DNA from: a virus
Strand: one strand, 5' to 3'
IMG/VR virus record: IMGVR_UViG_3300007538_000034
Coordinates: 1 to 50,388 of that record
Length of the DNA stretch: 50,388 nucleotides
Below the pieces are notes generated by a model that was given only the letters and a program-made list of their open reading frames with translations, ran no database searches and was not told where the DNA came from. Every line of letters begins with the position of its first letter. The stretch's first letter is position 1. Shown here piece by piece: positions 2 to 25,845 of this stretch. Position numbers and translations under genes: made by a program.

Positions 2-1012
2 AAGATTGAAAACGAACTGCTCGACGTGGCTCCTATTTGGACGAATCTCAAAACATTCCCGTGGAAACTCTATCGTGGAAAAGTGGATATCCTCTCAGGA
101 GGCTTTCCTTGTCAGCCATTTAGCTCCGCAGGAAGACGCGCAGGAGATGAAGATCCGAGACACCTCTTTCCCTACATCATCAACGGTCTCAGAGAGTTGG
201 GACGACCTCCCCTTGTTTTCTTTGAAAATGTTGAAGGAATCCTCTCATCAAAGCTCAAATCAGACGGATGGAACGACGCCGAAGGCACATCGGTTTTGCT
301 CCATGTCCTCCGAGAATTGGAGAGATTGGGTTACGATGCAACGGCGGGAGTATTCTCAGCGTGTGAAGTCGGCGCGCCCCATCAACGAAAGCGCGTGTTC
401 ATTTTGGGTGTGCGCTCCGATCTCGGGAAATCAGGACGCAATCTTGTTTCATCAATGCTCAGAGACACAGAGTCGAGAAGAACAGCTGTGGAGCACGCCG
501 AGAGCTTCAAAAATGCATGCAGAGAGACTCGAATTTATGGAAATAAGAGCGCGGAGGCTAGGGAAAAAAATACATCCTTGTCTTGCAACCGAGGCACCAG
601 TACAGCATACCCCAAAAACAGAGCTATGGGCTACACCGCGACTCAAAACGGAAGCCGAGGACGTAACAAAGATGATGGCTCGCGTGAAAAAGTGTGGGGA
701 TCGTCAAAAAATGTTTTCTTGTCTTCCGACTCAAGCTCAACTAGCTACCCCGCCCCAAGAGGCGCAGAGCAATACCCCTATGAACCCCCCCGAATTACAG
801 CAAGCGACATCAACACCGCTCGACAAACTCAATCCCCGTTGGGTCGAGATGTTGATGGGTTTACCGATCGGATGGACTATGCCGAGTTGTGCCCATCCGT
901 GGATAGTAACACAGATGAGCTTAGACTGCTCGGAAATGGAGTCGTGCCCGATACAGCCGAACGAGCATTTAGAGTTTTGTGGAGAGATCTCAGCGGAGAG
1001 GAACAAAGATGA
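2..1012 (+). CDS. DNA cytosine-5 methyltransferase (5' end outside window)
   Basis: Moves a methyl group from S-adenosylmethionine to C5 of cytosine; in phages this usually shields the DNA from restriction. The frame is open through the left edge, so the SAM-binding motif I lies outside the window. Visible in order are motif IV GGFPCQPFS with the catalytic Cys (about 100-126), motif VI FFENVEG (about 220-240), motif VIII GAPHQRKRVF (about 370-400) and motif X RLLGNGVVP near the C terminus. Between VIII and X, where the target-recognition domain should be, this frame reads as a Ser/Arg/Asn/Thr-rich stretch while another frame is also open (separate entry). It ends in an ATGA overlap with the next gene. 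The enzyme class is clear from the motifs; the target sequence cannot be read. Confidence 0.9.
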   Translation, partial: KIENELLDVAPIWTNLKTFPWKLYRGKVDILSGGFPCQPFSSAGRRAGDEDPRHLFPYIINGLRELGRPPLVFFENVEGILSSKLKSDGWNDAEGTSVLLHVLRELERLGYDATAGVFSACEVGAPHQRKRVFILGVRSDLGKSGRNLVSSMLRDTESRRTAVEHAESFKNACRETRIYGNKSAEAREKNTSLSCNRGTSTAYPKNRAMGYTATQNGSRGRNKDDGSREKVWGSSKNVFLSSDSSSTSYPAPRGAEQYPYEPPRITASDINTARQTQSPLGRDVDGFTDRMDYAELCPSVDSNTDELRLLGNGVVPDTAERAFRVLWRDLSGEEQR

Positions 1013-1025
1013 CGACTTTCTATGA
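6..1025 (+). other. Second open frame across the methyltransferase gene
   Basis: This frame, +1 relative to the methyltransferase, is open for 339 codons across the same DNA. Its second half looks protein-like: two related segments starting LWSTPRAS and LWATPRLK, then LNPRWVEMLMGLPIGWT at about 834-884. I recognise that last signature from C-terminal parts of phage C5 methyltransferases. So both frames carry family-typical segments: this one the LMGLPxGWT segment, the main one motif X. It could be an independent overlapping gene, a frameshift-fusion extension, or an ancestral frame kept open by chance. There is no obvious ribosome binding site of its own, so the start is unknown; the TTG at 6 is only the first possible codon. 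Confidence 0.35.
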
Positions 1026-5543: not shown

Positions 5544-5742
5544 CGTAGATCATCCTGATCACTATCACAGAGACTCAGGAATCGAAGTGATCGAGATCAT
5601 CGAAGCATGGAACCTCAATTTCTCGCGGGGCAATGTATTGAAGTATTTAGCGAGAGCAGGGGCAAAGAGCAACGAACTCGAAGATCTTGAGAAGTGTCTT
5701 TGGTACTTGCAACGAGAGATCGAGAGGGTGAGAAAACAATGA
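5536..5742 (+). CDS. DUF3310 family protein
   Basis: 68 residues covering nearly the whole domain: DHPDHYHRDSGIEVIEIIEAW, then NVLKYLARAGAKSNELEDLEKCLWYLQREIE. These PDHY, GNxxKYxxRaG and DLxKaxWYLxR elements define DUF3310, a small domain common in phage genomes. Its function is not established, though it often lies near nucleotide-metabolism genes. It sits between a small unknown and a DNA methyltransferase with ATGA overlap, so it belongs to the same transcript. Confidence 0.85.
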   Translation: MSNVDHPDHYHRDSGIEVIEIIEAWNLNFSRGNVLKYLARAGAKSNELEDLEKCLWYLQREIERVRKQ

Positions 5743-6896
5743 TTTTACATGGTGACAGTTTAGAGAAACTCCGAACTCTTGATGATTGTTCTGTCGATGC
5801 TGTAGTAACGGATCCCCCTTATGGTCTTGGTAACACGTCGCCTAAAATCGTGGCGGAGTGTCTTAGGGCTTGGTCATGTGGTGAGACTTGGGAACCATCG
5901 GGGCGCGGTTTTATGAATAAGAGTTGGGATGCGTGGGTTCCGCCACCTGAGTTATGGCGCGAGGTGCTCCGCGTGCTCAAGCCTGGAGGTCACGCGCTTG
6001 TTTTTGCGAGCTCGCGCACTCAAGATCTCATGAGTATCTCGCTACGATTAGCGGGGTTTGAAGTAAGAGATACTCTGATGTGGTTCTATGGATCAGGGTT
6101 TCCAAAGTCGCACGACGTAAGCAAGGGAATTGATAAACAGCGAGATGATCGAAACGATGCGCGTCAATGGGAAGGTTGGGGAACTGCGCTCAAACCTGCT
6201 TATGAGCCTGTTATTTTGATTAGAAAACCACTTGATGGCACTGTTGCGAACAATGTACTTGAGCATAGTACGGGGGCAATCAACATTGATGCTTGTCGTG
6301 TTGGTGATGAAGCTAGGGTCAATCCTCGGGCACGCAACAAAGTTGGGGGCACCTCATTAGGTTTATCTGAAAGGGGTATGCCACAAGATGCACAAGCGAG
6401 TGCGTGTACAGGTCGATGGCCTGCAAACGTGATACTTGATGATCACGTAGCTGAGATGCTCGATGATCAGGTTCAAAGTAACGTGTCGCGTTTCTTCTAC
6501 TGCCCGAAAGCGAGTAAGACTGAACGTGACGCGGGGTTGGAGGGTCGCAAGAAACAGTTAACCGGCAGTATTTTTACTGCCGGTGGATCTATGAAAACGG
6601 GCTCCGGTAACGAGCGCACTACAACACGAGCAAACACTCATCCCACGGTCAAACCTCTCGATCTCATGCGTTATTTAGTCCGCTTGATCACTCCCCCCAA
6701 TGGATTGATCCTTGATCCATTCACGGGGTCAGGGTCAACGCTCTGCGCCGGTGCGTTGGAGGGTTTCCGTGTGATCGGTATCGAGCGCGAGGCGGAGTAT
6801 GTAGAGATCGCGCGTGCTCGTCTTGCTCATTGGACTCATGAGGCTGAGGGTGAGGAAACAATGATCGGTGATCAACTAGGTCTCTTTGACACTTAA
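5739..6896 (+). CDS. DNA methyltransferase, beta class (N4-cytosine or N6-adenine)
   Basis: 385 residues from the ATG at 5739, which overlaps the DUF3310 stop (ATGA). It modifies an exocyclic amino group in DNA using SAM. Motif IV VVTDPPYG is at residues 22-29 and the SAM-binding motif I DPFTGSGST at 326-334; catalytic motif first and SAM motif last is the beta-class order. TVKP before the last segment is also typical. DPPY fits N6-adenine or N4-cytosine; the base is not decided by sequence. It probably protects phage DNA from restriction. Its 3' end overlaps the convergent gene at 6893 by 4 nt. Confidence 0.9.
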   Translation: MILHGDSLEKLRTLDDCSVDAVVTDPPYGLGNTSPKIVAECLRAWSCGETWEPSGRGFMNKSWDAWVPPPELWREVLRVLKPGGHALVFASSRTQDLMSISLRLAGFEVRDTLMWFYGSGFPKSHDVSKGIDKQRDDRNDARQWEGWGTALKPAYEPVILIRKPLDGTVANNVLEHSTGAINIDACRVGDEARVNPRARNKVGGTSLGLSERGMPQDAQASACTGRWPANVILDDHVAEMLDDQVQSNVSRFFYCPKASKTERDAGLEGRKKQLTGSIFTAGGSMKTGSGNERTTTRANTHPTVKPLDLMRYLVRLITPPNGLILDPFTGSGSTLCAGALEGFRVIGIEREAEYVEIARARLAHWTHEAEGEETMIGDQLGLFDT

Positions 6897-8937: not shown

Positions 8938-10530
8938 ATGATCACACATAATCCGGCTCCTTCATTTGCGGAGATGCTGAGAGACTTAGCGTCTGCGAGT
9001 GAGGACATCATCAACAAAGCGATGCGATCTGATAAGTTGGGCGCGTCGTCACCGGTACCACAAGCGCATGATCTCAATCCGTGGGATTCGGCTTCGGCAT
9101 ATTCGGCGGAGTATCGTGGATCAGAGCACGAGGGGACACTCGGCCTTGATTATGACATTTTGTTACAAATGTCACGAGTTCCGGTGATAAGCGCAATCTT
9201 ACAAACTCGGATCAATCAGGTCGCTGAGTTCTGTACACCTCAGCATGATAAATACAGTGCCGGATTTGTGATCAGCCCACGGGATAGAGATGCAGAGATT
9301 GACGATGCTTTGAGATCTCGCATCAACGAGTTAACGAGATGGCTTGAGACTTGTGGAGATGGTTACAAGTACGGCGGGGCTGAGTCCTTTGAGGCATTTA
9401 TCCGCATGATACTACGCGACTCTCTCACTTATGATCAATGTGCTTTTGAGATCCTCAAGAATCGAAAAGGCGAGGTATCGGGATTTGTTCCGGTAGACGC
9501 TTCAACGATTCGCAGAGCTACGATCGACAGTGAGGAAAAGAAACAAGGTCGTCGAGATTGGGAAGATTCGGCATTTGTGCAAGTGATCAACGGTAAAACA
9601 GTCGCCGAGTGGGACGCGGACGCGCTAGCTTTCGGAGTGAGGCGACCGCGTACATGGATCTATTCTCGCGGATATGGTTATCCGGAACTTGAGGAACTTG
9701 TGAGGACTGTGACGTACTTAGTGAATGCGGAAACGTATAACGCTAGTAATTTCGTTAACGGGATTCATGTAAACTCGATTCTTGCAGTTAAAAGTAAGAT
9801 GAGTCCGCAAGTTTTCCGAGCGTTTCGTCGTGACTTCTATGCGATGTTGAGTGGAGCACACCAAGCAAAGCGGACTCCGATTTTACAACTTGATCCCGAA
9901 GCAAACGAGGAGGTTTCAAGCGTGAATCTCGGACAAAGTGCCGAAGAAATGGGGTATTCTACTTGGATGGGGTACTTAACTAAACTAGCGTGCGCTATAT
10001 ACCAAATTGATCCGGCGGAGCTTGGTTTTGTGTTTGGTAGTGAGGGGGTTACGAGTTCTCTGAGCCAAGGAGGGCCGGAGCAACGTATACTCGCGAGTAA
10101 AGACCGAGGGTTTAGGCCACTACTCAGGCAAGTGCAGGGATGGATCAACCGGTGGATCATTCACCCGATCGACCCCGAACTTTCGTTTCGTTTTGTTGGT
10201 TTGGACGTGACGAGCGCGGAAGCAGAGCAGAAACGGCGCATCGACGCGGTGAGTCATTATCAGACTATCAACGAGGTACGTGCCGAGATAGGACTTGAAC
10301 CGCTTGAGAAGGGTGGCGACATTGTCCTCAATCAAACGTACATCACGGGATTGATGGGGGCGGATGGTGCTGAGGGAGATGTTGACGGAGATGGTGAGTA
10401 TTACGATGACTCAGGAGAGCCCGAGGAGGAAGGGGCAGGGATCGACGATGAGAGCGGAGTTGATGACGACGAGGGGGCAGACATTGAGAAATCAATCAAT
10501 CCTCGAGTGATTGTGAGCGTAGAGTTATGA
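8938..10530 (+). CDS. Portal protein
   Basis: 530 residues. Portals form the dodecameric ring through which DNA enters and leaves the head. Typical features are ILQTRINQVAEF near residue 90, the long central domain with FEAFIRMILRDSLTYDQCAFEILKNRKGEVSGFVPVDASTIR, TYLVNAETYNASNFVNG, and the late LTKLACAIYQIDPAELGF with GFRPLLRQVQGWINRW. The C-terminal tail (about 470-520) is very acidic. It is the first gene of the head module and overlaps the next by ATGA. Confidence 0.9.
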   Translation: MITHNPAPSFAEMLRDLASASEDIINKAMRSDKLGASSPVPQAHDLNPWDSASAYSAEYRGSEHEGTLGLDYDILLQMSRVPVISAILQTRINQVAEFCTPQHDKYSAGFVISPRDRDAEIDDALRSRINELTRWLETCGDGYKYGGAESFEAFIRMILRDSLTYDQCAFEILKNRKGEVSGFVPVDASTIRRATIDSEEKKQGRRDWEDSAFVQVINGKTVAEWDADALAFGVRRPRTWIYSRGYGYPELEELVRTVTYLVNAETYNASNFVNGIHVNSILAVKSKMSPQVFRAFRRDFYAMLSGAHQAKRTPILQLDPEANEEVSSVNLGQSAEEMGYSTWMGYLTKLACAIYQIDPAELGFVFGSEGVTSSLSQGGPEQRILASKDRGFRPLLRQVQGWINRWIIHPIDPELSFRFVGLDVTSAEAEQKRRIDAVSHYQTINEVRAEIGLEPLEKGGDIVLNQTYITGLMGADGAEGDVDGDGEYYDDSGEPEEEGAGIDDESGVDDDEGADIEKSINPRVIVSVEL

Positions 10531-10919
10531 GTTACACTGACATTATTAAAAGCTACCCTGCTAAATATGCACATATTGATTTCCGTCCTCCGCAGGGAGC
10601 ACGCGACGAGGCGAAACGAGGGCTTGAGTTACGTCGTGAGCACAGTCGAGGGGGACTCGATACGAGGCAAGCCGGTCGCTTAGGTATTGGGAGCGGAGTT
10701 CAACGAGCTTCGGATCTCGTTGAAGGTGCCCGATTGTCCCCTCAGACTGTTCGACGTATGGCAAACTTCTTCAATCGGCATCGTGTTTATAAAGAGCGTG
10801 GTTATCACAATGACCGAACCTCAGCATCTTATATCTCTTGGTTGTTGTGGGGAGGAGATGCGGGGGATCGGTGGTCTCAGAAACTTGTAGATCAGATGAA
10901 CCGAGCAGATAAACAATGA
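10527..10919 (+). CDS. Conserved phage protein with a WLLWGGD motif
   Basis: 130 residues. The C-terminal half, SPQTVRRMANFFNRHRVYKERG...SASYISWLLWGGDAGDRWSQ, matches a motif I recall in many phage proteins next to portal and head genes, sometimes fused to other structural proteins. Function is not established. The N terminus (IIKSYPAKYAHIDFRPPQGARDEAKRGLELR) looks like a separate helical segment. ATGA overlaps on both sides place it in the portal operon. Confidence 0.65.
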   Translation: MSYTDIIKSYPAKYAHIDFRPPQGARDEAKRGLELRREHSRGGLDTRQAGRLGIGSGVQRASDLVEGARLSPQTVRRMANFFNRHRVYKERGYHNDRTSASYISWLLWGGDAGDRWSQKLVDQMNRADKQ

Positions 10920-11578
10920 AGCTGAAACTAGAAGCTACAGCCCAAGAACTCTTGGAGCATACCGTCGAATCATTGACGCATCGGATCGAGCGCGTCGCCT
11001 CGGATATTGCACGCGGTGCGCTCGATGATGGACTACGCAAAGCAGAACGTGCAGACACTCCGGCAGAGCCCCACGAACGCATCAAAGGCAGTGAGCGCAA
11101 CCCCTCCGGTTCTGCTCGTAGTGTTTCGAGTGGTGCAGGTATACAACTAAGTGACGCTGTTATATCTGCACTAAAAGAGGATGTGAGGGAACACAACGAG
11201 AACGCATCGCAGGAGTGGCAACGAGTCACACTCGCACAATTAAAAGCGGTATGGCGACGCGGTGCGGGTGCGTTCTCTGTGAGTCACAGACCATCACAAA
11301 ATAGACAGAGTTGGGCATTTGCCCGCGTGAAATCGTTCCGCGATATTGTGATGGGAGGGGGAAATCCGAAATATGTGCAAGATGATGATTTACTTGACGC
11401 AAAGCATCCAAGACGACGCACAGAAAAGGCGCAGTGTGGTACAATCATGCACAAGAGTATCAGCAGAGGAGGCGAGGTTGATCTTGTCGTCGAACTTGCC
11501 GAGCGTATGCGTGACAGGTATCTCGAGAGACTCGAAGAACTAAGTATTGAACTAGCAAAGATCACAAAGGATCAGTGA
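10916..11578 (+). CDS. Conserved phage head-module protein
   Basis: 220 residues. After a helical, charged N-terminal half, the segment LAQLKAVWRRGAGAFSVSHRPSQNRQSWAFARVKSFRDIVMGG...NPKYVQDDDLL matches a conserved domain seen in phage and prophage proteins near head genes. Its function is not established. The C terminus (about 185-220) is a helix rich in Glu and Arg. It ends in a TGATG overlap with a possible 27-codon gene. Confidence 0.65.
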   Translation: MKLKLEATAQELLEHTVESLTHRIERVASDIARGALDDGLRKAERADTPAEPHERIKGSERNPSGSARSVSSGAGIQLSDAVISALKEDVREHNENASQEWQRVTLAQLKAVWRRGAGAFSVSHRPSQNRQSWAFARVKSFRDIVMGGGNPKYVQDDDLLDAKHPRRRTEKAQCGTIMHKSISRGGEVDLVVELAERMRDRYLERLEELSIELAKITKDQ

Positions 11579-11675: not shown

Positions 11676-12143
11676 ATGTTTCATTTTTCTCAATGGGTCG
11701 ATTTACTGCTGAAAGCGCAGGGACACCGGTATCTCAAGCGTATTCCTTACATGAGCGGAGGAAAACGACGCTATCGTTACATCTATAAAGTAACGCACAC
11801 TCACCGAGGAAAACAGGCATTTGACGAGGCGCACCTCGTTGATGGCACTGCTTTCTCGTTATCATCCCAACGAGGTAATGAGTTTCATGGACATATCAAG
11901 AGCGTAAATGGTGATCGAGTCACTTATGTAATCGATGATGGGCCGGACAAAGGTAAAGAGGTAACAGAGAGCAAGCGGGACTTGTTAGCGAAACTCAATG
12001 AAACGCACGGTATCACAGAGCAAGTGAACAAAGAACGCGAGAAACTAAAACAACAGATCGAACTCGCAAAACAAAAGGGATCGGAGAAACAAGTAAAACG
12101 TCTCGAGGAGCGTCTCTCGCGATTAAGCGGATCAAAGAAACAG
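11676..12143 (+). repeat. 468-bp direct repeat, copy 1 (N-terminal tag)
   Basis: Matches 15552-16019 in frame with no insertions or deletions and only scattered base changes, many of them silent. It encodes the shared 156-residue N terminus. Similarity stops abruptly after AAGAAACAG at 12143. Confidence 0.9.
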
Positions 12144-14507
12144 CCGGAGCCACAACCCGAACAAGATGATCCAAGATCAGACGATCCCATCGTGACAGCA
12201 GAGTTTGACATCAACGCAATACAAGACGCGATCGACAATGGTCACGATCTTACTCCGGTGATTGTTTTACAGAAACAATTTATCGAGAAACGCGATGCAG
12301 GATTGTTGACTCCGGCATTACTACAAGAGTCACTTAGAATCTACGAGACGATGATCGAGCCCATTGTCCTCGAGCGCGTTAAAAAGAAGAAGAAGGATCT
12401 CTTGTTGCAGTACATTGCTTCAAATATCAGTATGTGGACGGCATCCCGAATGAAGTCGGAGAAAAAACAAGAGGTTGTTGATACTGTGATGGACTCGTTT
12501 TTGCGTAACGTGACTAATACCCCACTTCTCCAAGAGCGTCGGAATATTGTCACTTATAGTCTCTACGAAATCAAGAATCGAGAAACATATGCCCAACGAG
12601 TCAAACGTTTAGTCGGAGAGTATACAGAAGAGGACGCGATTGAGGACAAGAAGAGACTAGCCGATCAGATTGAAACAGCGAAACAACAACAGGCAGAAAA
12701 AGAGCGTCTGCTTTCTAATCCCCAAACGGCTCAAGATTACATCGAACTCAAGAGATTGAGGCGCAATAAGGGCGAAGATCTGACGGACGAACAACACGCA
12801 AAACATAATGACCTCGTAGCGAGAAGAAACAGAGATCGACGCGAGGCCGAAAAAACAAAACAAGCACCTCCGAAGAAAATAACAGGTGGCTTTGAGTCGT
12901 TTGATACAAAGCACTCTAAGACGGGAGCGGATCTGTTCGCAGTGCGTCCCGCTGAGCGTGTTGATCGGGAGGAGTATATGCGTTTAAAAGCAGAGGCTAA
13001 GAAACTCGGTGGTTATTACTCGAGTTATAGCACTGTGCGCGGTTTCGTGTTTCCTTCCACAGAGGCACGAGAGCAGTTTATCCAAGCGAATCAGCAACCG
13101 GAAACAACAGACACACAAGAGCCGGTAGATACACAGAGAGCCAAGCGCGACGCGCTTCGGGAACGATTAGAGAGTTATCGAGATAGCGCAAACGAGGCAC
13201 TCAGCGCAGACCGCCTAACAAACACAGCGCGACGCGCTAGGTTTGCAAGATCTGCCACTGAGGACGCATATAGACAGATTGAGCGGGTGAACAGGGGGCA
13301 ACGCATACTCAATGCAATAGACGAAGGGAGAGCGTACCACTTGCAGAATATAAGCAACGCGATCGATCTTGACTCGTTGCAAAGTATCGTAGACCGCGCC
13401 AAATCTATGTCTATAAATGGCAAAGGGTTGAGTTGGGACGAGTACCAAAAACAACGCGACAAGCTAAAAAGCGCACCGATTCCCCAACAAATCATTGAGT
13501 CTCAAGAACTATATCCCGATAAATTGAAGCTATGGCCCTCAGACATCAAGACACTAAGAAAATATTTAACTCGTAGCGATGGAACTGCTCGAAGTGGTGC
13601 GAGTATGGCCTTACGAGAATTGAATGCTATGCTTTCGGAGCCAAAAGAAAAATTACATAGTGTTCCGATTGATACTTTATTACGAGTACTCGCACACGTC
13701 CCTCCGGAGACCGATAAATCGTATGGTGTACTAAGTCAGGTGATGGATCTGAAGCGAGATCATGATCGACTGAAACGATTGGGCATTGAGAACGAACTCG
13801 AGTTAAAGGCTACGATCCGAGAGTACGAAGATATTGCATATCAACGATCAGCAGAGGATAAAAAAGCAGACAAAGAGGCTGAGGAGGCGAAGGCCGAGCG
13901 CGATCGTTTGATTCGTCGCGGTGAGTTTGCTCGAATGAATATCCCGTCATACTTCCCTACCCCTGCAAATGTGATTGATCGTATGATTGAGATTGCAGGA
14001 ATCGGGGAGGGGGAGACAGTACTCGAACCAAGTGCAGGGGCGGGGCACATTCTCGAAAAACTCGCAGATACAAAGGCGAGTGTGAAAGCAATCGAGGCAA
14101 ACGCAGGATTAAGAAACTATCTCGAGGATCAAGGGCATGATGTCGTTGGAAACGATGCACTTCAACACTCGGACACTTATGATCATGTTATCATGAATCC
14201 ACCATTCGAGAAACAAGCAGACATAGACCACGTTACACACGCATTTGAAAATAACTTGGTGAATGGTGGTCGTCTTGTTGCTGTTATGTCTGCGAGTGCA
14301 ATGACACGAGACAACAAGAAATCGCGGGATTTCCAAGACCTCGTAAACAAGTATGGACACTATGAGAAGTTACCGGAAGGCACTTTCAAGGATTCCGATC
14401 GACAGACCGGAGTAAGTACAATCTTAGTGACCCTCGATCTTCCGATTCACGGTCTAAGCAAGAGTTTCTCGTTTTCCTCGATTGTGGAGCAACTGCTTTT
14501 AAAGTGA
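11676..14507 (+). CDS. Large polyvalent-type protein: shared N-terminal tag plus C-terminal N6-adenine DNA methyltransferase
   Basis: 943 residues; ATG at 11676 with AGAGGT 7 nt before it. Residues 1-156 (FHFSQWVDLLLKAQGHRYLKRIPYMSGGKRRYRYIYK...) are nearly identical to the start of the protein at 15552. A long helical region follows, including KAEAKKLGGYYSSYSTVRGFVF (about 430-465), a segment type I recall from phage polyvalent proteins. The C-terminal 200 residues form a SAM methyltransferase: VLEPSAGAGH at 782-791 and NPPF at 841-844, the gamma-class order of N6-adenine enzymes. Lying between portal and protease genes, it is probably packaged in the head and injected to modify DNA early, as P1 DarB is thought to do. 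The packaging role is inference. Confidence 0.75.
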   Translation: MFHFSQWVDLLLKAQGHRYLKRIPYMSGGKRRYRYIYKVTHTHRGKQAFDEAHLVDGTAFSLSSQRGNEFHGHIKSVNGDRVTYVIDDGPDKGKEVTESKRDLLAKLNETHGITEQVNKEREKLKQQIELAKQKGSEKQVKRLEERLSRLSGSKKQPEPQPEQDDPRSDDPIVTAEFDINAIQDAIDNGHDLTPVIVLQKQFIEKRDAGLLTPALLQESLRIYETMIEPIVLERVKKKKKDLLLQYIASNISMWTASRMKSEKKQEVVDTVMDSFLRNVTNTPLLQERRNIVTYSLYEIKNRETYAQRVKRLVGEYTEEDAIEDKKRLADQIETAKQQQAEKERLLSNPQTAQDYIELKRLRRNKGEDLTDEQHAKHNDLVARRNRDRREAEKTKQAPPKKITGGFESFDTKHSKTGADLFAVRPAERVDREEYMRLKAEAKKLGGYYSSYSTVRGFVFPSTEAREQFIQANQQPETTDTQEPVDTQRAKRDALRERLESYRDSANEALSADRLTNTARRARFARSATEDAYRQIERVNRGQRILNAIDEGRAYHLQNISNAIDLDSLQSIVDRAKSMSINGKGLSWDEYQKQRDKLKSAPIPQQIIESQELYPDKLKLWPSDIKTLRKYLTRSDGTARSGASMALRELNAMLSEPKEKLHSVPIDTLLRVLAHVPPETDKSYGVLSQVMDLKRDHDRLKRLGIENELELKATIREYEDIAYQRSAEDKKADKEAEEAKAERDRLIRRGEFARMNIPSYFPTPANVIDRMIEIAGIGEGETVLEPSAGAGHILEKLADTKASVKAIEANAGLRNYLEDQGHDVVGNDALQHSDTYDHVIMNPPFEKQADIDHVTHAFENNLVNGGRLVAVMSASAMTRDNKKSRDFQDLVNKYGHYEKLPEGTFKDSDRQTGVSTILVTLDLPIHGLSKSFSFSSIVEQLLLK

Positions 14508-14514
14508 GCACAGA

Positions 14515-15525
14515 ATGACACTCGACGAACTATCCTCAGAGACTGCGCGTCTCACTGCATTGTATCACGATGCTTACATGATCGATCTTTTTGGTGTGAT
14601 GGGGTCGGGGCTACCTGACGAGAGAATCGAGGAACTCCGAGAGGCCGGATTGATCGACGAGAGCGAGAGTCTCACGATTGAGGGGATCCGTCCTGTCGAG
14701 TTTCTGCTTGGTGCGGGTCATGTGTTTGGAGATCAACCGGAACGACTTGCGGAGTTGCGAGAGTACGATATTACTGAGTTTACTCCTCTCGTAGTCGCAA
14801 AGCTCGACGATCTACGCTCCATGTCTCGCACAGAGGCGGAGGCGCGAAGATATGAACCAATGAGAGCACCGGCTCCACAAGGTGAGGGGGGACGATCACC
14901 GGCTCCCCCACCCGATTGGATGAGTCCCGCGGAGCGCGGTGCGTATCAGCGTTTATCACTCCGCGCCGGTGAGTATATTCGAGGACTTGGCAACGCGCTA
15001 TCTGCGGAACTTGAGAACGTTATTGCAGAAGGTTGGGCCGGTGAAGAGATCACAGAGGAAATACTACCGGAACAACGTCAACAGATGCTCACGATGATAA
15101 GAGAAGAAGCATCGAGAGAACTCGCAACGGGGAGAGACGCGCGACGACTCGCGGGTACTCTTGCAGATAGATCGCAGTATTACGCGCATAATTGGCTCAG
15201 GATAGCTCAAACAGAACTCCAAGGGGCACATAACGAGGGGCGGATCATTGCAAGCGTCGAGGCATACGGCGACGGAGCAAGAGTCGCGAGGATTCCCGAA
15301 TCCGGTGCTTGTGATCAATGTATCTCATTACTCACTGATGAAGCAGGGAACCCAAGAGTTTGGAGAGTCGACGAATTACAAAACAACGGTGTTAACGTAG
15401 GACGGAGACGCGAAGAGTGGGTGGCTACGATCTTCCCGATTCATCCCAACTGTCGATGTGATACGATCTCCGTTCCCGAAGGTTTTAGTGTTACTTCTGA
15501 CGGTCGTCTCCGTCGCGTGATATAA
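14515..15525 (+). CDS. MuF-type head morphogenesis protein (SPP1 gp7-like)
   Basis: 336 residues. MuF proteins are minor head proteins near the portal needed for head assembly or early infection. The C-terminal third carries the family pattern: RIAQTELQGAHNEGRIIAS, then SGACDQCISLL (about 262-272), then VNVGRRREEWVATIFPIHPNCRCD (about 295-317), with Cys and His residues likely to bind metal. The N-terminal part is helical with a Pro-rich linker at about 115-140. It lies between the two proteins sharing the N-terminal tag, so all three may enter the head together. Confidence 0.85.
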   Translation: MTLDELSSETARLTALYHDAYMIDLFGVMGSGLPDERIEELREAGLIDESESLTIEGIRPVEFLLGAGHVFGDQPERLAELREYDITEFTPLVVAKLDDLRSMSRTEAEARRYEPMRAPAPQGEGGRSPAPPPDWMSPAERGAYQRLSLRAGEYIRGLGNALSAELENVIAEGWAGEEITEEILPEQRQQMLTMIREEASRELATGRDARRLAGTLADRSQYYAHNWLRIAQTELQGAHNEGRIIASVEAYGDGARVARIPESGACDQCISLLTDEAGNPRVWRVDELQNNGVNVGRRREEWVATIFPIHPNCRCDTISVPEGFSVTSDGRLRRVI

Positions 15526-15526
15526 T
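15518..15526 (+). promoter_or_regulatory. Extended -10 promoter TGATATAAT
   Basis: TGATATAAT overlaps the last codons of the MuF gene, 26 bp before the ATG at 15552. A weak -35 candidate (CTGACG) lies 18 bp upstream. It is a perfect TG-n-TATAAT. Confidence 0.6.
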
Positions 15527-15551
15527 CAAGGCACAATGAAGGGAGTCTACA

Positions 15552-16019
15552 ATGTTTCATTTTTCTCGATGGGTCGATTTACTGCTGAAAGCGCAGGGAC
15601 ATCGGTATCTCAAGCGTATTCCTTATATGAGCGGAGGAAAACGACGCTATCGTTACATCTATAAAGTAACTCACACTCACCAAGGAAAACAGGCATTTGA
15701 CGAGGCGCATCTCGTTGATGGCACTGCTTTCTCGTTATCATCCCAACGAGGTAATGAGTTTCATGGACATATCAAGAGCGTAAATGGCGATCGAGTCACT
15801 TATGTAATTGATGACGGGCCGGACAAAGGTAAAGAGGTAACAGAGAGCAAGCGTGAGTTGTTAGCGAAACTCAATGAAACTCATGGTATCACCGAGCAAG
15901 TCGGCAAAGAACGCGAGAAACTAAAGCAACAGATCGAACTCGCAAAACAAAAAGGATCAGAGAAACAAGTAAAACTGCTCGAACAACGTCTCTCGCGGTT
16001 GGGGGGCTCAAAGAAACAG
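15552..16019 (+). repeat. 468-bp direct repeat, copy 2 (N-terminal tag)
   Basis: Second copy of the tag-coding DNA, 3,876 bp downstream of copy 1, colinear without gaps. The MuF gene and the body of the first tagged gene lie between them. Recombination between copies would delete that segment. Confidence 0.9.
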
Positions 16020-17291
16020 CCACAAGCAGAACCGGAGCCACAAGCAGAGCCGGAGCCACGAAAAGAAAAGAAAAAAAGAGAGAGCAAGAAAGCACAAACA
16101 TCAACGAGTTGGGACTACCTTGAATATTTGTCGCGCAATCCTGAGAGTTCTGTTTACAAGGATTTGCAAGATCGTGTGAAGCTATCACACGAGGAGATCG
16201 ATTTTGTTGCGAGGCGAGTTATTCCGTATGAGGTACGCACACCATATGTACGGGAGAGGCGCGGAAAAACAGGATCACTTATTTCTCTTTCAGACATAGA
16301 CACAGACAAAAGAAACATACTACTCGCATACAGTCCTCTTGATGATGCTATTGTCATGTACATAAAAACGGGAGACCTTGAGAACTCCGTCGGTGATGTG
16401 TTGGGTTTACCGTACGACTTCATTAAACACAAGAAAACGGAGGCTCTCGCAATGCTTGCTCTGCTAAGAGACAAACTAGACCTTGATCAGCTCGATTCGG
16501 AGACAGATGTCAATAATATGGATGATCTGCTGAAATATCGAGACACAGTAAAAAGCGCGTGGAATGAGATCTCGGGCAAAGACGCACGTAGCTCTCACAT
16601 CGGCGTAATACTCGGACTCGCAGGGAGCGCAATCAAAGAGAAGAAGGATGTGCTCAAAATGGAGTACATCGAGAGTCGTGGTTTTGTTCAAGATCGCTCT
16701 CCCTCCGAAGTCTCGCGGAAGGAAGAAACAGGGTTAAGTAAAGCGGATCGAGAAAAGATGATTGCCGTTGTCAAAAATGAGAAAAGACCGGATCTAAGGG
16801 GTCTGTTTGTACGAGATGGATTTGTAGCAACGACAGACGGGTACCGTATGCTTTTCAGAGACACGACGATACGGGCATCCAATGTTCCTAGAGAAGACAG
16901 AAACACAACACAACGTCCCGATTTTAAAAACGTAATCCCGCAGAGCAGTCCTACGCTTACGATGGATAAACACACAATCAAACACCTACGCAACGCGCTC
17001 TCGGGATTCAGAAAGCAGAGGGATGCAAAGGTTAAATTTAGATATAATAACCAAACATCTAAGATGGATATAGTAGTCAGTGGCTTCAACGCAGAATCAG
17101 AATACAAGATCGCATCGATTGACTCCGCGGAACAGACGAGAGATGCCGTACTAGATGCAAAGTTTTTGCGGGATTCGCTTAATCTAGTCGGAGATAGTGC
17201 GACATTCCATCTTAGTAACATCCGCAATACTCCCGTACTCATCACCGGTGAGTCGGGGTTGCATAGTGTTATCATGGAACACGTGGAGTAA
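15552..17291 (+). CDS. Polyvalent-type protein: shared N-terminal tag plus sliding-clamp-like C terminus
   Basis: 579 residues. Residues 1-156 repeat the tag of the 943-residue protein, followed by a Lys/Glu/Gln/Pro linker and a helical middle (about 185-385). The C-terminal 190 residues resemble the fold of a DNA polymerase beta clamp: FVRDGFVATTDGYRMLF, VIPQSSPTLTMDKHTIKHLRNAL, LDAKFLRDSLNLVGDSATFHL and the ending NTPVLITGESGLHSVIME. In DnaN the analogous 'PvxI...' strand and terminal residues close the ring. If packaged through the tag it could be delivered with phage DNA to recruit or decoy polymerase; this is inference. GGGAG precedes the ATG. Confidence 0.65.
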   Translation: MFHFSRWVDLLLKAQGHRYLKRIPYMSGGKRRYRYIYKVTHTHQGKQAFDEAHLVDGTAFSLSSQRGNEFHGHIKSVNGDRVTYVIDDGPDKGKEVTESKRELLAKLNETHGITEQVGKEREKLKQQIELAKQKGSEKQVKLLEQRLSRLGGSKKQPQAEPEPQAEPEPRKEKKKRESKKAQTSTSWDYLEYLSRNPESSVYKDLQDRVKLSHEEIDFVARRVIPYEVRTPYVRERRGKTGSLISLSDIDTDKRNILLAYSPLDDAIVMYIKTGDLENSVGDVLGLPYDFIKHKKTEALAMLALLRDKLDLDQLDSETDVNNMDDLLKYRDTVKSAWNEISGKDARSSHIGVILGLAGSAIKEKKDVLKMEYIESRGFVQDRSPSEVSRKEETGLSKADREKMIAVVKNEKRPDLRGLFVRDGFVATTDGYRMLFRDTTIRASNVPREDRNTTQRPDFKNVIPQSSPTLTMDKHTIKHLRNALSGFRKQRDAKVKFRYNNQTSKMDIVVSGFNAESEYKIASIDSAEQTRDAVLDAKFLRDSLNLVGDSATFHLSNIRNTPVLITGESGLHSVIMEHVE

Positions 17292-17294
17292 ATC

Positions 17295-18293
17295 ATGCCA
17301 TACAAAAACGAACATACAGCGAGACAGAACGACCCCGCTCAATACGACCAACTGCGCCGATTCACTCCGAAGGGAGCTCCCGACGGACTCTCGATGATCC
17401 TCGGGATCAAAGAGGGAACGAGCGAAGTGCAGAGTATCAGAGCAGACGCGGATAAGTTATCACCTGCGAAGTTTCGAGAGTGGCTTGAGCGTCACTCCTT
17501 CGATGTTTCGCAACTAGAAGAGGCGACACGAAAATCTTTTGATACTTTTGCGCGTTGGGTACCATTGCGTCTCGATCCGATCATCAAAGCAGAACGAGAG
17601 GGAGATACCGACGTAGAAGAGACATCTAAAGCACTGATCGCCGGTATCTGTTCAACTCGTGACATGGATCTCGAGGGGGAAGTGATTGAGCAAGACGGTT
17701 TGGATTGGTCGTATTTTCTGAACAACGGTTGGTTCAATCACGAGCATCAACAAGGCGCGGGAGCGGTTCTCGGTCATCCGGTTAAAATCAATCAACTCGA
17801 TGACAATCGAACTCATGTCGAGGGTGTTTTGTACCTCGATAAACAACTAGGTCGCGACGTGTATGAGACAGCGGTAGCTATGAAAAAGGCAGGCGGAGAC
17901 AGATCTCTCGGCTTTAGTGTCGAGGGTCAAGTGTTGCAACGAGACCCACGAAACAACAAGCGAGTATTGAAAGCTCGTGTTTTGAACGTGGCTATCACTG
18001 CGCATCCCGTGAATCCCCATACTAATCTTGAATTAATAGCGAGAAGTATGGGCGCGTCGGTTGGGTATCAGGAGCCAACAATTCCGGACGCAGATGCGAG
18101 TTTGAGCGCGCTTGCACAACAGAGTTTAGATGAGCGTCTAAGTTCTGCCACCTACGGATCATCTAAAAAAGTATCAAAACAGCGAGTCAAAGAGTTACTT
18201 GCTCAACGTATGCCTGAGATGGATGATGACGATCTTAATCGTTTTGTTACGCAGTTAATGAAGCTCGCTAACGAAAAATCACGCAAGACTTAA
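17295..18293 (+). CDS. Prohead maturation protease
   Basis: 332 residues. Cleaves scaffold and capsid proteins during head maturation. The domain at about 110-255 has ICSTRDMDLEGEVIEQDGLDW, WFNHEHQQGAGAVLGHPVKI with the candidate catalytic His, VEGVLYLDKQLGRDVYETAVAMKKAGGDRSLGFSVEG with the candidate Ser in RSLGFS, and AVTAHPVNPHT-like VAITAHPVNPHTNLE; this is the HK97-type (S78) pattern. The N-terminal 100 residues (SMILGIKEGTSEVQSIRAD...WLERHSFD) are a common extra domain in phage relatives. It lies just upstream of the scaffold-like and capsid genes. Confidence 0.88.
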   Translation: MPYKNEHTARQNDPAQYDQLRRFTPKGAPDGLSMILGIKEGTSEVQSIRADADKLSPAKFREWLERHSFDVSQLEEATRKSFDTFARWVPLRLDPIIKAEREGDTDVEETSKALIAGICSTRDMDLEGEVIEQDGLDWSYFLNNGWFNHEHQQGAGAVLGHPVKINQLDDNRTHVEGVLYLDKQLGRDVYETAVAMKKAGGDRSLGFSVEGQVLQRDPRNNKRVLKARVLNVAITAHPVNPHTNLELIARSMGASVGYQEPTIPDADASLSALAQQSLDERLSSATYGSSKKVSKQRVKELLAQRMPEMDDDDLNRFVTQLMKLANEKSRKT

Positions 18294-19012: not shown

Positions 19013-20458
19013 ATGTATTCATTTCCCGAGGCAAACGCTTCCGTAAACGTCGCAGATTTAGCTGAGTTAAACAACGCACTCCGCAAATCTGCGGATATTG
19101 GCTATCAAGTAGGCGCAAGCACTAGCGGAGGAGACGCGGGGAACTTATCTCCCCTTGTCCCTCAGAGCATTGAAAACACTCTTTCATCGGCTACATACAC
19201 CATGAAAGAGCTTTCGTTGTGGCCTAGCATCCCAAAAATCCAAGTTACTAACACTCTCCACGAGTATGCAGTAATCAACGATCACGGTTTAGATCTCGAA
19301 CCCTTCATCGCAGAGGGTTCCGGTGGTGTAACAAACAGATCTGAGTACGAGCGCAAGACTGTACGTGTTAAGTACCTCGCGGAGCGTCGCGAAGTGACTG
19401 ACGTAGCCGGACTTGTCGGTCTGATCGGTGGCAACGCTAACGCGATCGCAATGGAAACCGAGCGAGGCACACTCCGCCTCATGCAAAAACTTGAGCGTTC
19501 TCTGTGGCACGCGAAAGAAAGCGTAAACCCTCTTGCGTTCGATGGTATCATTCATCAAATCGAGAGTCACAACAGTGGCGCGAACACTTTCGATCTACGC
19601 GGTAAGTCTCCGACTCCTCGTCTTTTGCAAGAAGTTCTCTCAGAGATTCAGAGCGCACCTCGTTTCGGTCGTCCTGATTGTATTTATGTCGAACCGCGCA
19701 TCCATGCGGAACTGATCAAGTTCGCAGTTCAGTGGGGACGACATGATCAATTCTCAGCACTTCGCCAAGCGGACGGCCTCACCTACGGAGTCCAAGAACT
19801 CAATATAATGAGTCCTTACGGGCCTGTTCCTGTGAAGAGTGCGCCGTTCTTGTTCAATGCTTACTCTGCACCTGCAAGCGCAAGCGGAACAACCGGAGCC
19901 CCCGCGAATCCCGCAATCACAAATCAGCCGAGCGTAGCGGGGACTACTTCGCAGTTCGCTCAAGCTGATCTCGGATTCTATGGGTACCGCGTTGTAGCTG
20001 TAAATAACAGCGGTTTCTCTGCTCCTGTTAACACTTCTACTATTGAAGTAGCGAATGCCGGTGAGATCGTATCTTTCACCATCACCGACGCAAGCGACGC
20101 AGTATTCTATAAGATCTATCGTACAGAGAAAGCAAGTAGTGCTCTCGGTGTAGACTTTGCGACTGCACGACTCATCGATGAAGTGAGAAACGTGAGTGGA
20201 AACGTGACTCCGATCTCTGATTCTAACGCAGTGATCCCCAACACTTCTAAGATCGTATTTGTACAACATGATCCAAGTGTTCTTGAGTTTGTGCGTCTAC
20301 TTGACTTCTTCCGTCGTCCTCTCGCCGAAGTTGAAACATCTAAGCCGTTCTTACTTATGCTCTTTGGTTCACCGGTTGTTAAGGTACCGAGCAAGATGTA
20401 CGTGCTTCAGAATGCCGGTGTCACTGAGACCTCCGGAATGTTAGACACTACTGTCTAA
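19013..20458 (+). CDS. Major capsid protein with inserted Ig/FN3-like domain
   Basis: 481 residues, strong AGGAG before the ATG. The N-terminal part (LSSATYTMKELSLWPSIPKIQVTNTLHEYAVINDHG, VKYLAERREVTDVAGLVG, METERGTLRLMQKLERSLWHA) and the C-terminal end (FRRPLAEVETSKPFLLMLFGSPVVKVPSKMYVLQNAG) look like an HK97-fold capsid subunit of the type found in large contractile-tailed phages. Residues about 285-412 differ: YGYRVVAVNNSGFSAPVNTSTI and VFYKIYRTEKA are typical of an Ig or fibronectin-type domain, probably exposed on the head surface. The position after protease and scaffold supports the call. Confidence 0.88.
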   Translation: MYSFPEANASVNVADLAELNNALRKSADIGYQVGASTSGGDAGNLSPLVPQSIENTLSSATYTMKELSLWPSIPKIQVTNTLHEYAVINDHGLDLEPFIAEGSGGVTNRSEYERKTVRVKYLAERREVTDVAGLVGLIGGNANAIAMETERGTLRLMQKLERSLWHAKESVNPLAFDGIIHQIESHNSGANTFDLRGKSPTPRLLQEVLSEIQSAPRFGRPDCIYVEPRIHAELIKFAVQWGRHDQFSALRQADGLTYGVQELNIMSPYGPVPVKSAPFLFNAYSAPASASGTTGAPANPAITNQPSVAGTTSQFAQADLGFYGYRVVAVNNSGFSAPVNTSTIEVANAGEIVSFTITDASDAVFYKIYRTEKASSALGVDFATARLIDEVRNVSGNVTPISDSNAVIPNTSKIVFVQHDPSVLEFVRLLDFFRRPLAEVETSKPFLLMLFGSPVVKVPSKMYVLQNAGVTETSGMLDTTV

Positions 20459-23889: not shown

Positions 23890-25845
23890 ATGCCATCTTC
23901 ACTAAATCTCAACGGGTTACGAGTTTTTCGCCCCGCCGTCTATGCCGAGGTCGATGCGTCGAGTCTTGGTGGACAATCACAATCTACCGGAAACCTCTGC
24001 ATTGTTGGAGAGTTTCCTTCGTTCAAACAATCCGAAGCACTCACGTTTACAAGTGCTCGATCTCTCGTTGCGTATGACGCGAGTGATGCTGAATTATCGT
24101 TGATCGGTAGTCTTGCTTTCTCACCATCGTTAGATGATCGGATTCCTGCCGGTGTTGCAAGTCTCAGTATTTTGAACGTACAGCCTACTACTCAAGCGAG
24201 TGTCATCTTTGTGGATGCAGACGGAGATAACGCGCTTAAAATTGTATCTCGTGTTTATGGTGCACGAGGAAACCGTTGCACTGTTGCCATTGAGAATACA
24301 AACGTCGATCAAGTAAATATCACAGTTTCTCGAGATGGTATTTCAGAGAGCTTTGATAATATTGAAAGCGGTGATCTCGCATCTGCATATTACAGTGGAT
24401 CTTTGTTGGACGGTGCAACGTTAAGCGCGACTCGCTCGGCTCTCTCGATTGCTTGGGATCAGAATGAGGCAATGAATAACGGAGCTGTTTCGTTTGATGT
24501 TTCAGATATTGCGACATCATCGACTTTGGACGTCGCTCTCTCAGCAAACACACACGCGAATACCATTTTTGTAACTATCACAGGACTGAATCTTGCGGGT
24601 AGTGCTACGACTGAGACCCTCTCATTTTTAGCGGGCGACGCTACGCAACAAACAACCGTCAACAGTTACAGCGTCATCTCGTCTATCTCAGCAACGAGCG
24701 ACGATGTTGCGTATGCGGGAGACGTTGAGGTAAGTGGCTCGTTGAGTCTTACTTGTGCAGATTATTCCGATCTAAGAGAGATGATCGAGGCAATCAACGC
24801 ACTCTCAGGATTTACAGCGTCGTATGATGTAGCGCAGAGTTATCCCGCTACTGAAATAGACGAGATAGAGAGCGCGACGATCGTGGGCTTAGTCAACTCA
24901 GCTACGTTTAGAGCGGATCTTTATGCTATTGTGCAGGCTCTCGGCTCATCTTTGCTCGTATCTGCGGAGAGAGCAACAAACGGAACCAAGAGCGTCGCCG
25001 AGAGCGTAGCGGGGACTACTTCGCTGAGATTGGCGGGCGGAAGCTCTACATCTGCATCTCTTAGTGATTGGAGCGACGCACTAGAGACGATCGAAGCTAG
25101 TGATCTGCAAATCCTTGTGGGTTGGTCTACTAACATTGATCACATGACCAAGATTAAAGCGCATCTTCCTCTCTCTGCTCGTGCAGGTCGAGAGCGAAAT
25201 GCGTGGATGGGAGCACCTACAAATCAAGCTCTATCTGTTCTTGATGCAAGTTACTCTAAATTACTCAACGATCGAAATATCGCGCTCGTGGGTCAGAGTA
25301 TCGATGTTGTAAAACCGAACGGACAACGAGCAACACTCGAGCCGAAATACTTAGCTCTTATGTTGGGGGCAATGCAAGCGGGCTCTGTAATCGGCGAACC
25401 ACTGACACGCAAACGACCCAACGTCTTAGCAGTATCAGGAAATTGGGACGCGAATCGCGACGCGACCGACGCAATCAAGGCCGGAGTAGTGTCTCTGAGT
25501 TATGGTTCTCTTGGTTGGCGCGTTGAGCGTTCTGTAACTACTTATCGTACTGATGATAATCCTATCTTCAGCGAAGTATCTGCAAACGAGAGTGTAAATG
25601 CGAGTGTGAGAGACCTTCGTGCCGGTCTTGATAGTTTCGTGGGGAGCGCGAATCGTAGTTTAACAGCTAACAGAATCAAGAGCATCGCAACCTCGCGGTT
25701 AAATCGACAAGTACAAGACGGAATTATTAAGAGTTTCCGAGATGTAGTACTCGAAGATCAAAGCGACTCGATTGTCGTGAATTACACAGTGTCAGCGGTC
25801 GAACCGCTAAACTTCATTCGCATCTCTGCGACTGTAAATAGATAG
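23890..25845 (+). CDS. Contractile tail sheath protein
   Basis: 651 residues; strong ribosome binding site CAGGAGG. The N terminus RVFRPAVYAEVDASSLGGQSQSTGNLCIVGEFPSF is the usual sheath start. The central part is Ser/Thr/Ala-rich beta structure, and the C terminus has LRAGLDSFVGSANRSLTANRIKSIATSRLNRQVQDGIIKSFRDVVLEDQSDSIVVNYTVSAVEPLNFIRISATVNR, the conserved sheath C-terminal arm. It shows the phage has a contractile tail. The following gene is the matching tube. Confidence 0.9.
   Translation: MPSSLNLNGLRVFRPAVYAEVDASSLGGQSQSTGNLCIVGEFPSFKQSEALTFTSARSLVAYDASDAELSLIGSLAFSPSLDDRIPAGVASLSILNVQPTTQASVIFVDADGDNALKIVSRVYGARGNRCTVAIENTNVDQVNITVSRDGISESFDNIESGDLASAYYSGSLLDGATLSATRSALSIAWDQNEAMNNGAVSFDVSDIATSSTLDVALSANTHANTIFVTITGLNLAGSATTETLSFLAGDATQQTTVNSYSVISSISATSDDVAYAGDVEVSGSLSLTCADYSDLREMIEAINALSGFTASYDVAQSYPATEIDEIESATIVGLVNSATFRADLYAIVQALGSSLLVSAERATNGTKSVAESVAGTTSLRLAGGSSTSASLSDWSDALETIEASDLQILVGWSTNIDHMTKIKAHLPLSARAGRERNAWMGAPTNQALSVLDASYSKLLNDRNIALVGQSIDVVKPNGQRATLEPKYLALMLGAMQAGSVIGEPLTRKRPNVLAVSGNWDANRDATDAIKAGVVSLSYGSLGWRVERSVTTYRTDDNPIFSEVSANESVNASVRDLRAGLDSFVGSANRSLTANRIKSIATSRLNRQVQDGIIKSFRDVVLEDQSDSIVVNYTVSAVEPLNFIRISATVNR

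Follow-up and report, generated by a model that had tools for sequence, protein, structure and literature searches.

Two Genes of the Head Block Share a Nearly Identical N-Terminal Segment

We analyzed a 50,388-nucleotide stretch of viral DNA, positions 1 to 50,388 of the IMG/VR record IMGVR_UViG_3300007538_000034 (hereafter, the window), that encodes within its head gene block two proteins starting with almost the same 156 residues, here called the tag, and continuing into different sequences, here called cargos. An earlier note on this DNA had claimed that the shared segment is colinear without gaps over 468 bp, that the two proteins are otherwise unrelated and are encoded among portal, MuF, and protease genes, and that one ends in an N6-adenine methyltransferase and the other in a sliding-clamp-like domain; it had inferred a capsid-targeting or ejection tag with exchangeable cargo. 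The two genes comprise the following features, all on the plus strand.

11676–12143 (+): tag copy 1, 156 residues; predicted N-terminal helix, basic beta-hairpin KRIPYMSGGKRRYRYIYKV, SH3/KOW-like barrel, and helical hairpin
12144–14507 (+): cargo 1, 787 residues; protein residues 196–924 are similar to a stretch inside giant phage proteins
13881–14447 (+): methyltransferase domain of cargo 1 (residues 736–924), with EPSAG at 14025 and NPPF at 14196
15552–16019 (+): tag copy 2, 156 residues; 96% protein identity to copy 1
16020–17291 (+): cargo 2, 423 residues; no match to cargo 1
16659–17288 (+): beta-clamp-like domain of cargo 2, with TDGYR at 16833 and the terminal VIME at 17268

The two tag copies align without gaps over all 468 bp with 30 nucleotide differences (93.6% identity), and 149/156 encoded residues are identical, 26 codons being changed. 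Similarity is at chance level just upstream of both ATG codons, and at the right border, situated at residues 156–160, it falls to chance level again. Direct comparison of the two cargos yielded no match; hence, the proteins are indeed unrelated outside the repeat. The open reading frame (ORF) of gene 1, as called mechanically, begins at GTG 11667; the homologous start is ATG 11676, which has AGAGG 8 nt upstream.

The record contains exactly two copies of the tag. An independent assembly (L003; here and below, L-numbers denote viral contigs or loci recovered in our searches) has both of them, arranged alike, and a second one (L004) has copy 2, which rules out an assembly artifact as the source of the repeat.

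Synonymous divergence between the copies (dS = 0.246; NG86) is far above the nonsynonymous divergence (dN = 0.024; dN/dS = 0.096), and hence the tags are under strong protein constraint. The divergence is uneven, with dS of 0.11 at codons 1–100 vs. 0.56 at codons 101–156, suggesting that the first part has been homogenized more recently.

Cargo Proteins and Predicted Structure of the Tag

The product of gene 1 (943 residues, counted from the ATG) has a C-terminal methyltransferase fold with the motifs EPSAG at residue 784 and NPPF at residue 841. Its residues 236–924 match phrog_15406 (1.7e-134) and further DNA methyltransferase PHROGs, and the match of cargo 1 to the Pfam model MTS (8.6e-05) is slightly short of the cut-off. 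The NPPF motif is also present in other amino-methyltransferases. Therefore, of the earlier assignment, the methyltransferase stands, whereas N6-adenine specificity is likely rather than proven. Cargo 1 has its nearest relatives inside giant phage proteins, the homologues being carried by gp43 of Salisaeta phage SSIP-1 (2,319 residues, annotated as "structural protein"), phiARM81mr p69 ("putative virion structural protein"), BA3_0002, and LKA5_059. The tag profile has no match in these giant proteins of SSIP-1, phiARM81mr, BA3, and LKA5, and hence they use another route or none.

The last 210 residues of the 579-residue product of gene 2 were modeled as a bacterial beta-clamp fold (AlphaFold2; mean predicted local distance difference test score, pLDDT, 70.8; predicted template modeling score, pTM, 0.70). 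A Foldseek search of the PDB with this domain produced 357 matches at E ≤ 0.001, the top 50 being beta clamps throughout (E about 1e-8). At about 210 residues, the domain corresponds to a part of one DnaN chain (TMq about 0.6, TMt about 0.37). A sequence-profile search of the PDB with the same domain was without success, and the identification comes from the fold search; relatives of cargo 2 match phrog_947, DNA polymerase processivity factor. The sliding-clamp-like ending proposed earlier is thus borne out.

The AlphaFold2 model of the tag (mean pLDDT 73) consists of an N-terminal helix, a basic beta-hairpin, a small barrel (residues 58–99), and a helical hairpin (residues 100–150), with a net charge of +9 over residues 1–45 and +7 over residues 100–156. 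Among solved folds, the barrel resembles SH3/KOW/Tudor-like domains at E of 0.03 or worse, none passing 0.001 (Foldseek), and the tag profile retrieved nothing significant from solved structures. The barrel likeness is a hint of a binding module and no more. Comparison of the tag with Pfam, PHROG, and NCBIfam gave no convincing match, the best scores being weak and coiled-coil- or scaffold-like (e.g., phrog_4080, 0.0024).

A Family of Tags in Viral Contigs

A search with the single tag sequence retrieved 4 contigs, a search with an alignment 26 loci, and one with a broader alignment 79 loci. The possibility that the tag is confined to two genes of one phage was thereby ruled out, as many relatives carry it. 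The profile built from the first set identified 102 modules in 101 ORFs of 71 non-duplicate viral contigs, 26 of which have two to four tagged ORFs. The tag was not found in bacterial genomes, in two scans with limited patterns, nor in plasmids.

The conserved length of the tag is about 130–156 residues with the predicted fold, and 12 residues are invariant down to 36% identity; those invariant in both first-family alignments include K13, H17, Y19, R22, P24, Y33, R34, Y35, Y37, and G45. Many tags share an LGG-like ending, a conceivable protease cleavage site. The distant tag of the first gene of L005 (with a truncated start) still scored 7.9e-09 when left out of the model, and so its membership is not circular.

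Most modules (89/102) start no more than 70 residues into the open frame. Nearly all of the 13 deeper ones reside in proteins of 1,000–2,900 residues, the exceptions, such as L010, having an open frame that extends upstream of the likely start. In L074 (7385–11206) and L075 (23–3844), one polypeptide holds two modules, those of L074 at residues 120 and 877 flanking a ddrB-ParB domain, which suggests that in giant proteins the module precedes each cargo unit. The 2,536-residue protein of L081 (9035–16642), encoded between MuF and the protease, contains, in this order, a module (residue 321), a HEWGH zincin, LPD1, a weak module (residue 1404), and ddrB-ParB. With an alignment of the giant-protein type, additional loci were recovered, and here too the module recurs within one protein (L155 at 35 and 767; L127 at 220 and 891; L138 at 1155 and 2028), and 12 large records (35–109 kb) have one to six modules each.

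Additional arrangements were observed in several relatives. The cargos of L045 (4490–5893), L047 (8027–9961), and L048 (4754–6130) have a second helical-hairpin part only (E about 5e-05 to 1e-03), which is a partial internal duplication of the tag. The freshwater-type relatives L060 (2883–11320) and L070 (3594–9116) have three to four tagged genes, partly arranged in tandem, and most of the cargos lack a recognized Pfam domain.

Cargo Variety and Genomic Position

The sequences following the module fall into 28 cargo groups, several with domains known from polyvalent proteins, so the check proposed in the earlier note, i.e., whether the segment is fused to varied enzymatic domains, came out positive. 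Methyltransferase cargos are found in the window and L024, with L079 and L080 in the same cargo cluster, and beta-clamp cargos in the window, L005, L014, L016/17/23, and others. Other recognized cargos are a HEWGH zincin with LPD1 (L005, L024, L026), ART-PolyVal (L025, 7.3e-14), an SNF2 helicase (L028, 1.2e-27), and ddrB-ParB (6/43 scanned, best 3.6e-25, plus L074 and L081); the majority of the remaining clusters have no recognized domain. Such domain types (LPD1, ART-PolyVal, ddrB-ParB, SNF2, zincin, methyltransferase) occur in polyvalent proteins encoded beside virion genes (Iyer et al., 2017; PMC5512222).

A recognized virion gene is located within 3 kb of 97/101 tagged ORFs, and in these cases both are co-directional, none of the virion genes being antisense; hence, the tag is not found mainly in non-structural contexts, an outcome that the earlier note would have taken as refutation. 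Of the tagged ORFs, 34 lie exactly between MuF and the protease, the most frequent slot, which also holds the giant tagged proteins of L080, L081, L088, and L090, and 10 between the portal and the next conserved head gene. Others precede the portal or MuF, lie in the neck region, or follow a tail gene. Overall, the gene order is otherwise conserved, and tagged genes are inserted into it at six or more positions. The tagged genes of L007 (7787–9259) and L042 (5017–6696) are situated between neck and tail-sheath genes; hence, the tag slot is not confined to head genes.

In the window, the portal, MuF, S78 protease, and major head protein genes surrounding the two tagged genes were all matched, in agreement with the location claimed earlier. 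The neighboring genes, also on the plus strand, are listed below.

8938–10530 (+): portal protein; Pfam Phage_portal 4.7e-13, phrog_12 portal 2.7e-38
10527–10919 (+): conserved head-block gene g10527; phrog_2859 4.8e-11; neighbor kept in relatives
10916–11578 (+): conserved head-block gene g10916, DUF5824-like segment; PF19141 9.3e-06; neighbor kept in relatives
14515–15525 (+): MuF-like minor head protein, between both tagged genes; phrog_115 4.8e-08; Pfam Phage_Mu_F 0.0011, below cut-off
17295–18293 (+): prohead protease, S78 type; PF04586 5.1e-06, phrog_1028 8.9e-51
19013–20458 (+): major head protein; phrog_752 5.1e-67
23890–25845 (+): tail sheath; phrog_279 7.3e-43

The tail sheath gene identifies the virus as a phage with a contractile tail. 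In close relatives, g10916 (10916–11578) is located between the portal and MuF genes as well.

Homogenization of Tags within Genomes

Tags have been homogenized across different cargos in several genomes, the window included. The tag of the window methyltransferase is 96% identical to that of the clamp protein from the same genome, 67–69% identical to the clamp tags of L014 and L005, and 63% identical to the methyltransferase tag of L024, the methyltransferase cargos of L024 and the window being 48% identical. The median tag identity is 82.5% for different cargos on the same contig vs. 54.6% for the same cargo in different lineages; hence, a tag can be closer to the others in its genome than to those on the same cargo elsewhere. 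The tags of the window group together as one clade (support 100/99), as do the two tags of L080 (100/99); tags of L047 and L048 also group by contig, with weaker support. Within-contig pairs with homogenized tags have dN/dS of 0.03 to 0.2.

Possible Function of the Tag

We suggest that the segment is probably a portable folded N-terminal module that commits its carrier protein to the virion, so that the cargo would be packaged and ejected. Virion loading and ejection is the simplest reading because a conserved N-terminal module under purifying selection is combined with varied early-acting cargo, a location in the head-assembly block, homogenization within some genomes, and use in giant polyvalent proteins of other lineages. 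During prohead formation, the module would be recognized by assembly proteins encoded nearby, for which the portal, MuF, a scaffold, or an inner capsid protein are candidates. The tagged cargo would then be packaged alongside DNA in the particle, with or without cleavage of the tag, and ejected into the host upon infection. The methyltransferase of cargo 1 would likely protect incoming DNA, and the beta-clamp-like cargo 2 could seat on it. In the window phage, polyvalent cargo that elsewhere belongs to single giant proteins may have been unbundled into separate genes with a common tag. In favor of virion loading, two other methyltransferase-like genes of the window (6–1025, phrog_1008, 2e-10; 5694–6896, phrog_67, 5.7e-65) are untagged, and both are located outside the head block.

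The main rival is DNA binding. Here the module would be a DNA- or nucleoprotein-binding domain holding early-acting proteins on phage DNA during or after entry, and packaging would be a by-product. The positive net charge of residues 1–45 (+9) and 100–156 (+7), the predicted SH3/KOW/Tudor-like barrel, and the methyltransferase, clamp, SNF2, and ParB-like cargos, all of which act on DNA, are consistent with it; yet DNA is not a necessary target of the ART and zincin-LPD1 cargos, SH3-like barrels serve many purposes, and the fold matches all fall short of E 0.001. The confinement to the virion block is not explained by DNA binding itself, as the untagged methyltransferases of the window act on DNA too, and we regard this explanation as unlikely. 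Internal and repeated copies, which part the cargo units in the giant proteins of L074, L081, L155, and L127, could instead point to a polyprotein delimiter that marks cleavage points between such units and is a leftover of gene fission in the split genes. Since the window and most relatives have a single N-terminal module, where a delimiter has no use and strong purifying selection is nevertheless observed, this appears rather improbable. Least probable of all, to the point of being hardly credible, is a recombination seam kept similar by gene conversion, which would be of benefit by letting cargo genes be shuffled and would play no part in delivery. Near-identity within genomes, sharp borders, and the diversity of cargos and slots would fit a seam, whereas the constraint on 12 residues, invariant down to 36% identity over large distances, needs a protein function, and the two copies in the window differ considerably at synonymous sites (dS 0.25 overall, 0.56 at codons 101–156).

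Several observations weigh against virion loading. The head-gene neighborhood and the virion-type cargo are circumstantial evidence, and the module is far larger than the known signals of T4 and P1. The confidence of the tag model is moderate, with pLDDT of the N-terminal helix below 50. The second tags of L005, L024, L025, and L026 form a separate, older clade, tags of the L059–L073 group are sorted partly by slot, and gene conversion alone could be the source of homogenization. Finally, a tblastn search of 50,697 cultured-phage records with the tags of the window, L006, L028, L088, and L081 found nothing.

On balance, the capsid-targeting or ejection tag with exchangeable cargo that the earlier note had inferred is supported at the level of sequence. 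In addition to what was proposed there, the module is widespread, is also present inside giant polyvalent proteins, and is homogenized within some genomes. A broader proposal, which we put forward tentatively and with somewhat less than even confidence, is that the module may represent a new phage domain family that acts as a universal virion cargo adaptor. In each phage lineage, the head-assembly machinery would read it, concerted evolution would keep its copies within a genome alike, and it would be attached to separate cargo genes or inserted repeatedly into giant polyvalent proteins, so that injected effectors would be exchanged by swapping what follows. If so, a single sequence signature would allow injected proteins of phages, also those with cargos of unknown function, to be recognized in metagenomes with no need for proteomics, and it would provide a sequence-based handle on the selection of polyvalent effectors for the virion. 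The tag would then be a large modular loading domain, amenable to reporter fusion like P1 DarB, and the fact that split genes and giant proteins employ one module in one and the same genomic slot would hint at how polyvalent proteins form or break up.

Comparison with Known Systems

Virion loading is plausible by analogy, as T4, P1, and SPN3US demonstrate that phages use such signals. In T4, the internal proteins and Alt are highly diverse anti-defense cargo in which only the capsid-targeting sequence (CTS) is conserved (PMC3012670), and this CTS is a peptide of 10–20 residues that is removed by the prohead protease (PMC5694885). Like the CTS, the tag is one conserved N-terminal element with varied cargo; unlike it, the module is about 150 residues long, folded, and also internal in giant proteins, the two being likened by description and not by comparison of sequences. 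Thus, of the properties of T4- and P1-type signals, the tag has the N-terminal position across different cargos and lacks the short format of 10–30 residues.

In P1, the methyltransferase-helicase DarB is packaged in the particle and, as is believed, injected, and the first 30 residues of the protein are enough to bring a reporter into the capsid (PMC9024508). The tagged cargo 1 likewise combines an N-terminal module with a methyltransferase protein, and cargo 1 is weakly similar to DarB (E 1e-4). The tag profile had no significant match in the P1 region holding darB. To our knowledge, the P1 Dar proteins do not have one common tag.

Ejection proteins of phiKZ and SPN3US have paralogous N-terminal propeptides of more than 100 residues, the number of which varies per genome; these paralogs belong to one family (PFAM domain 12699), and their cleavage sites have been mapped (PMC5694885). 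The tag resembles them in being a long N-terminal paralogous segment present in varying numbers per genome, and differs from them in being attached to unrelated enzymes. PF12699 is not among the matches of the tag; the comparison with SPN3US is one of descriptions rather than of sequences.

With polyvalent proteins (PMC5512222), the tagged proteins share the cargo domains and the virion-gene neighborhood (97/101 ORFs), whereas the domains are here split over several genes with a common N-terminal module. By the polyvalent criterion of at least two disparate domains per polypeptide, the L081 protein has LPD1 and ddrB-ParB, and the window proteins have the tag and one recognized domain each. The sliding clamp is not mentioned in the main text of Iyer et al. 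(2017; PMC5512222), and the tag itself could be one of their LPD domains for which Pfam has no model. Such a mode of action is known, whereas one folded tag common to unbundled polyvalent genes appears to be new.

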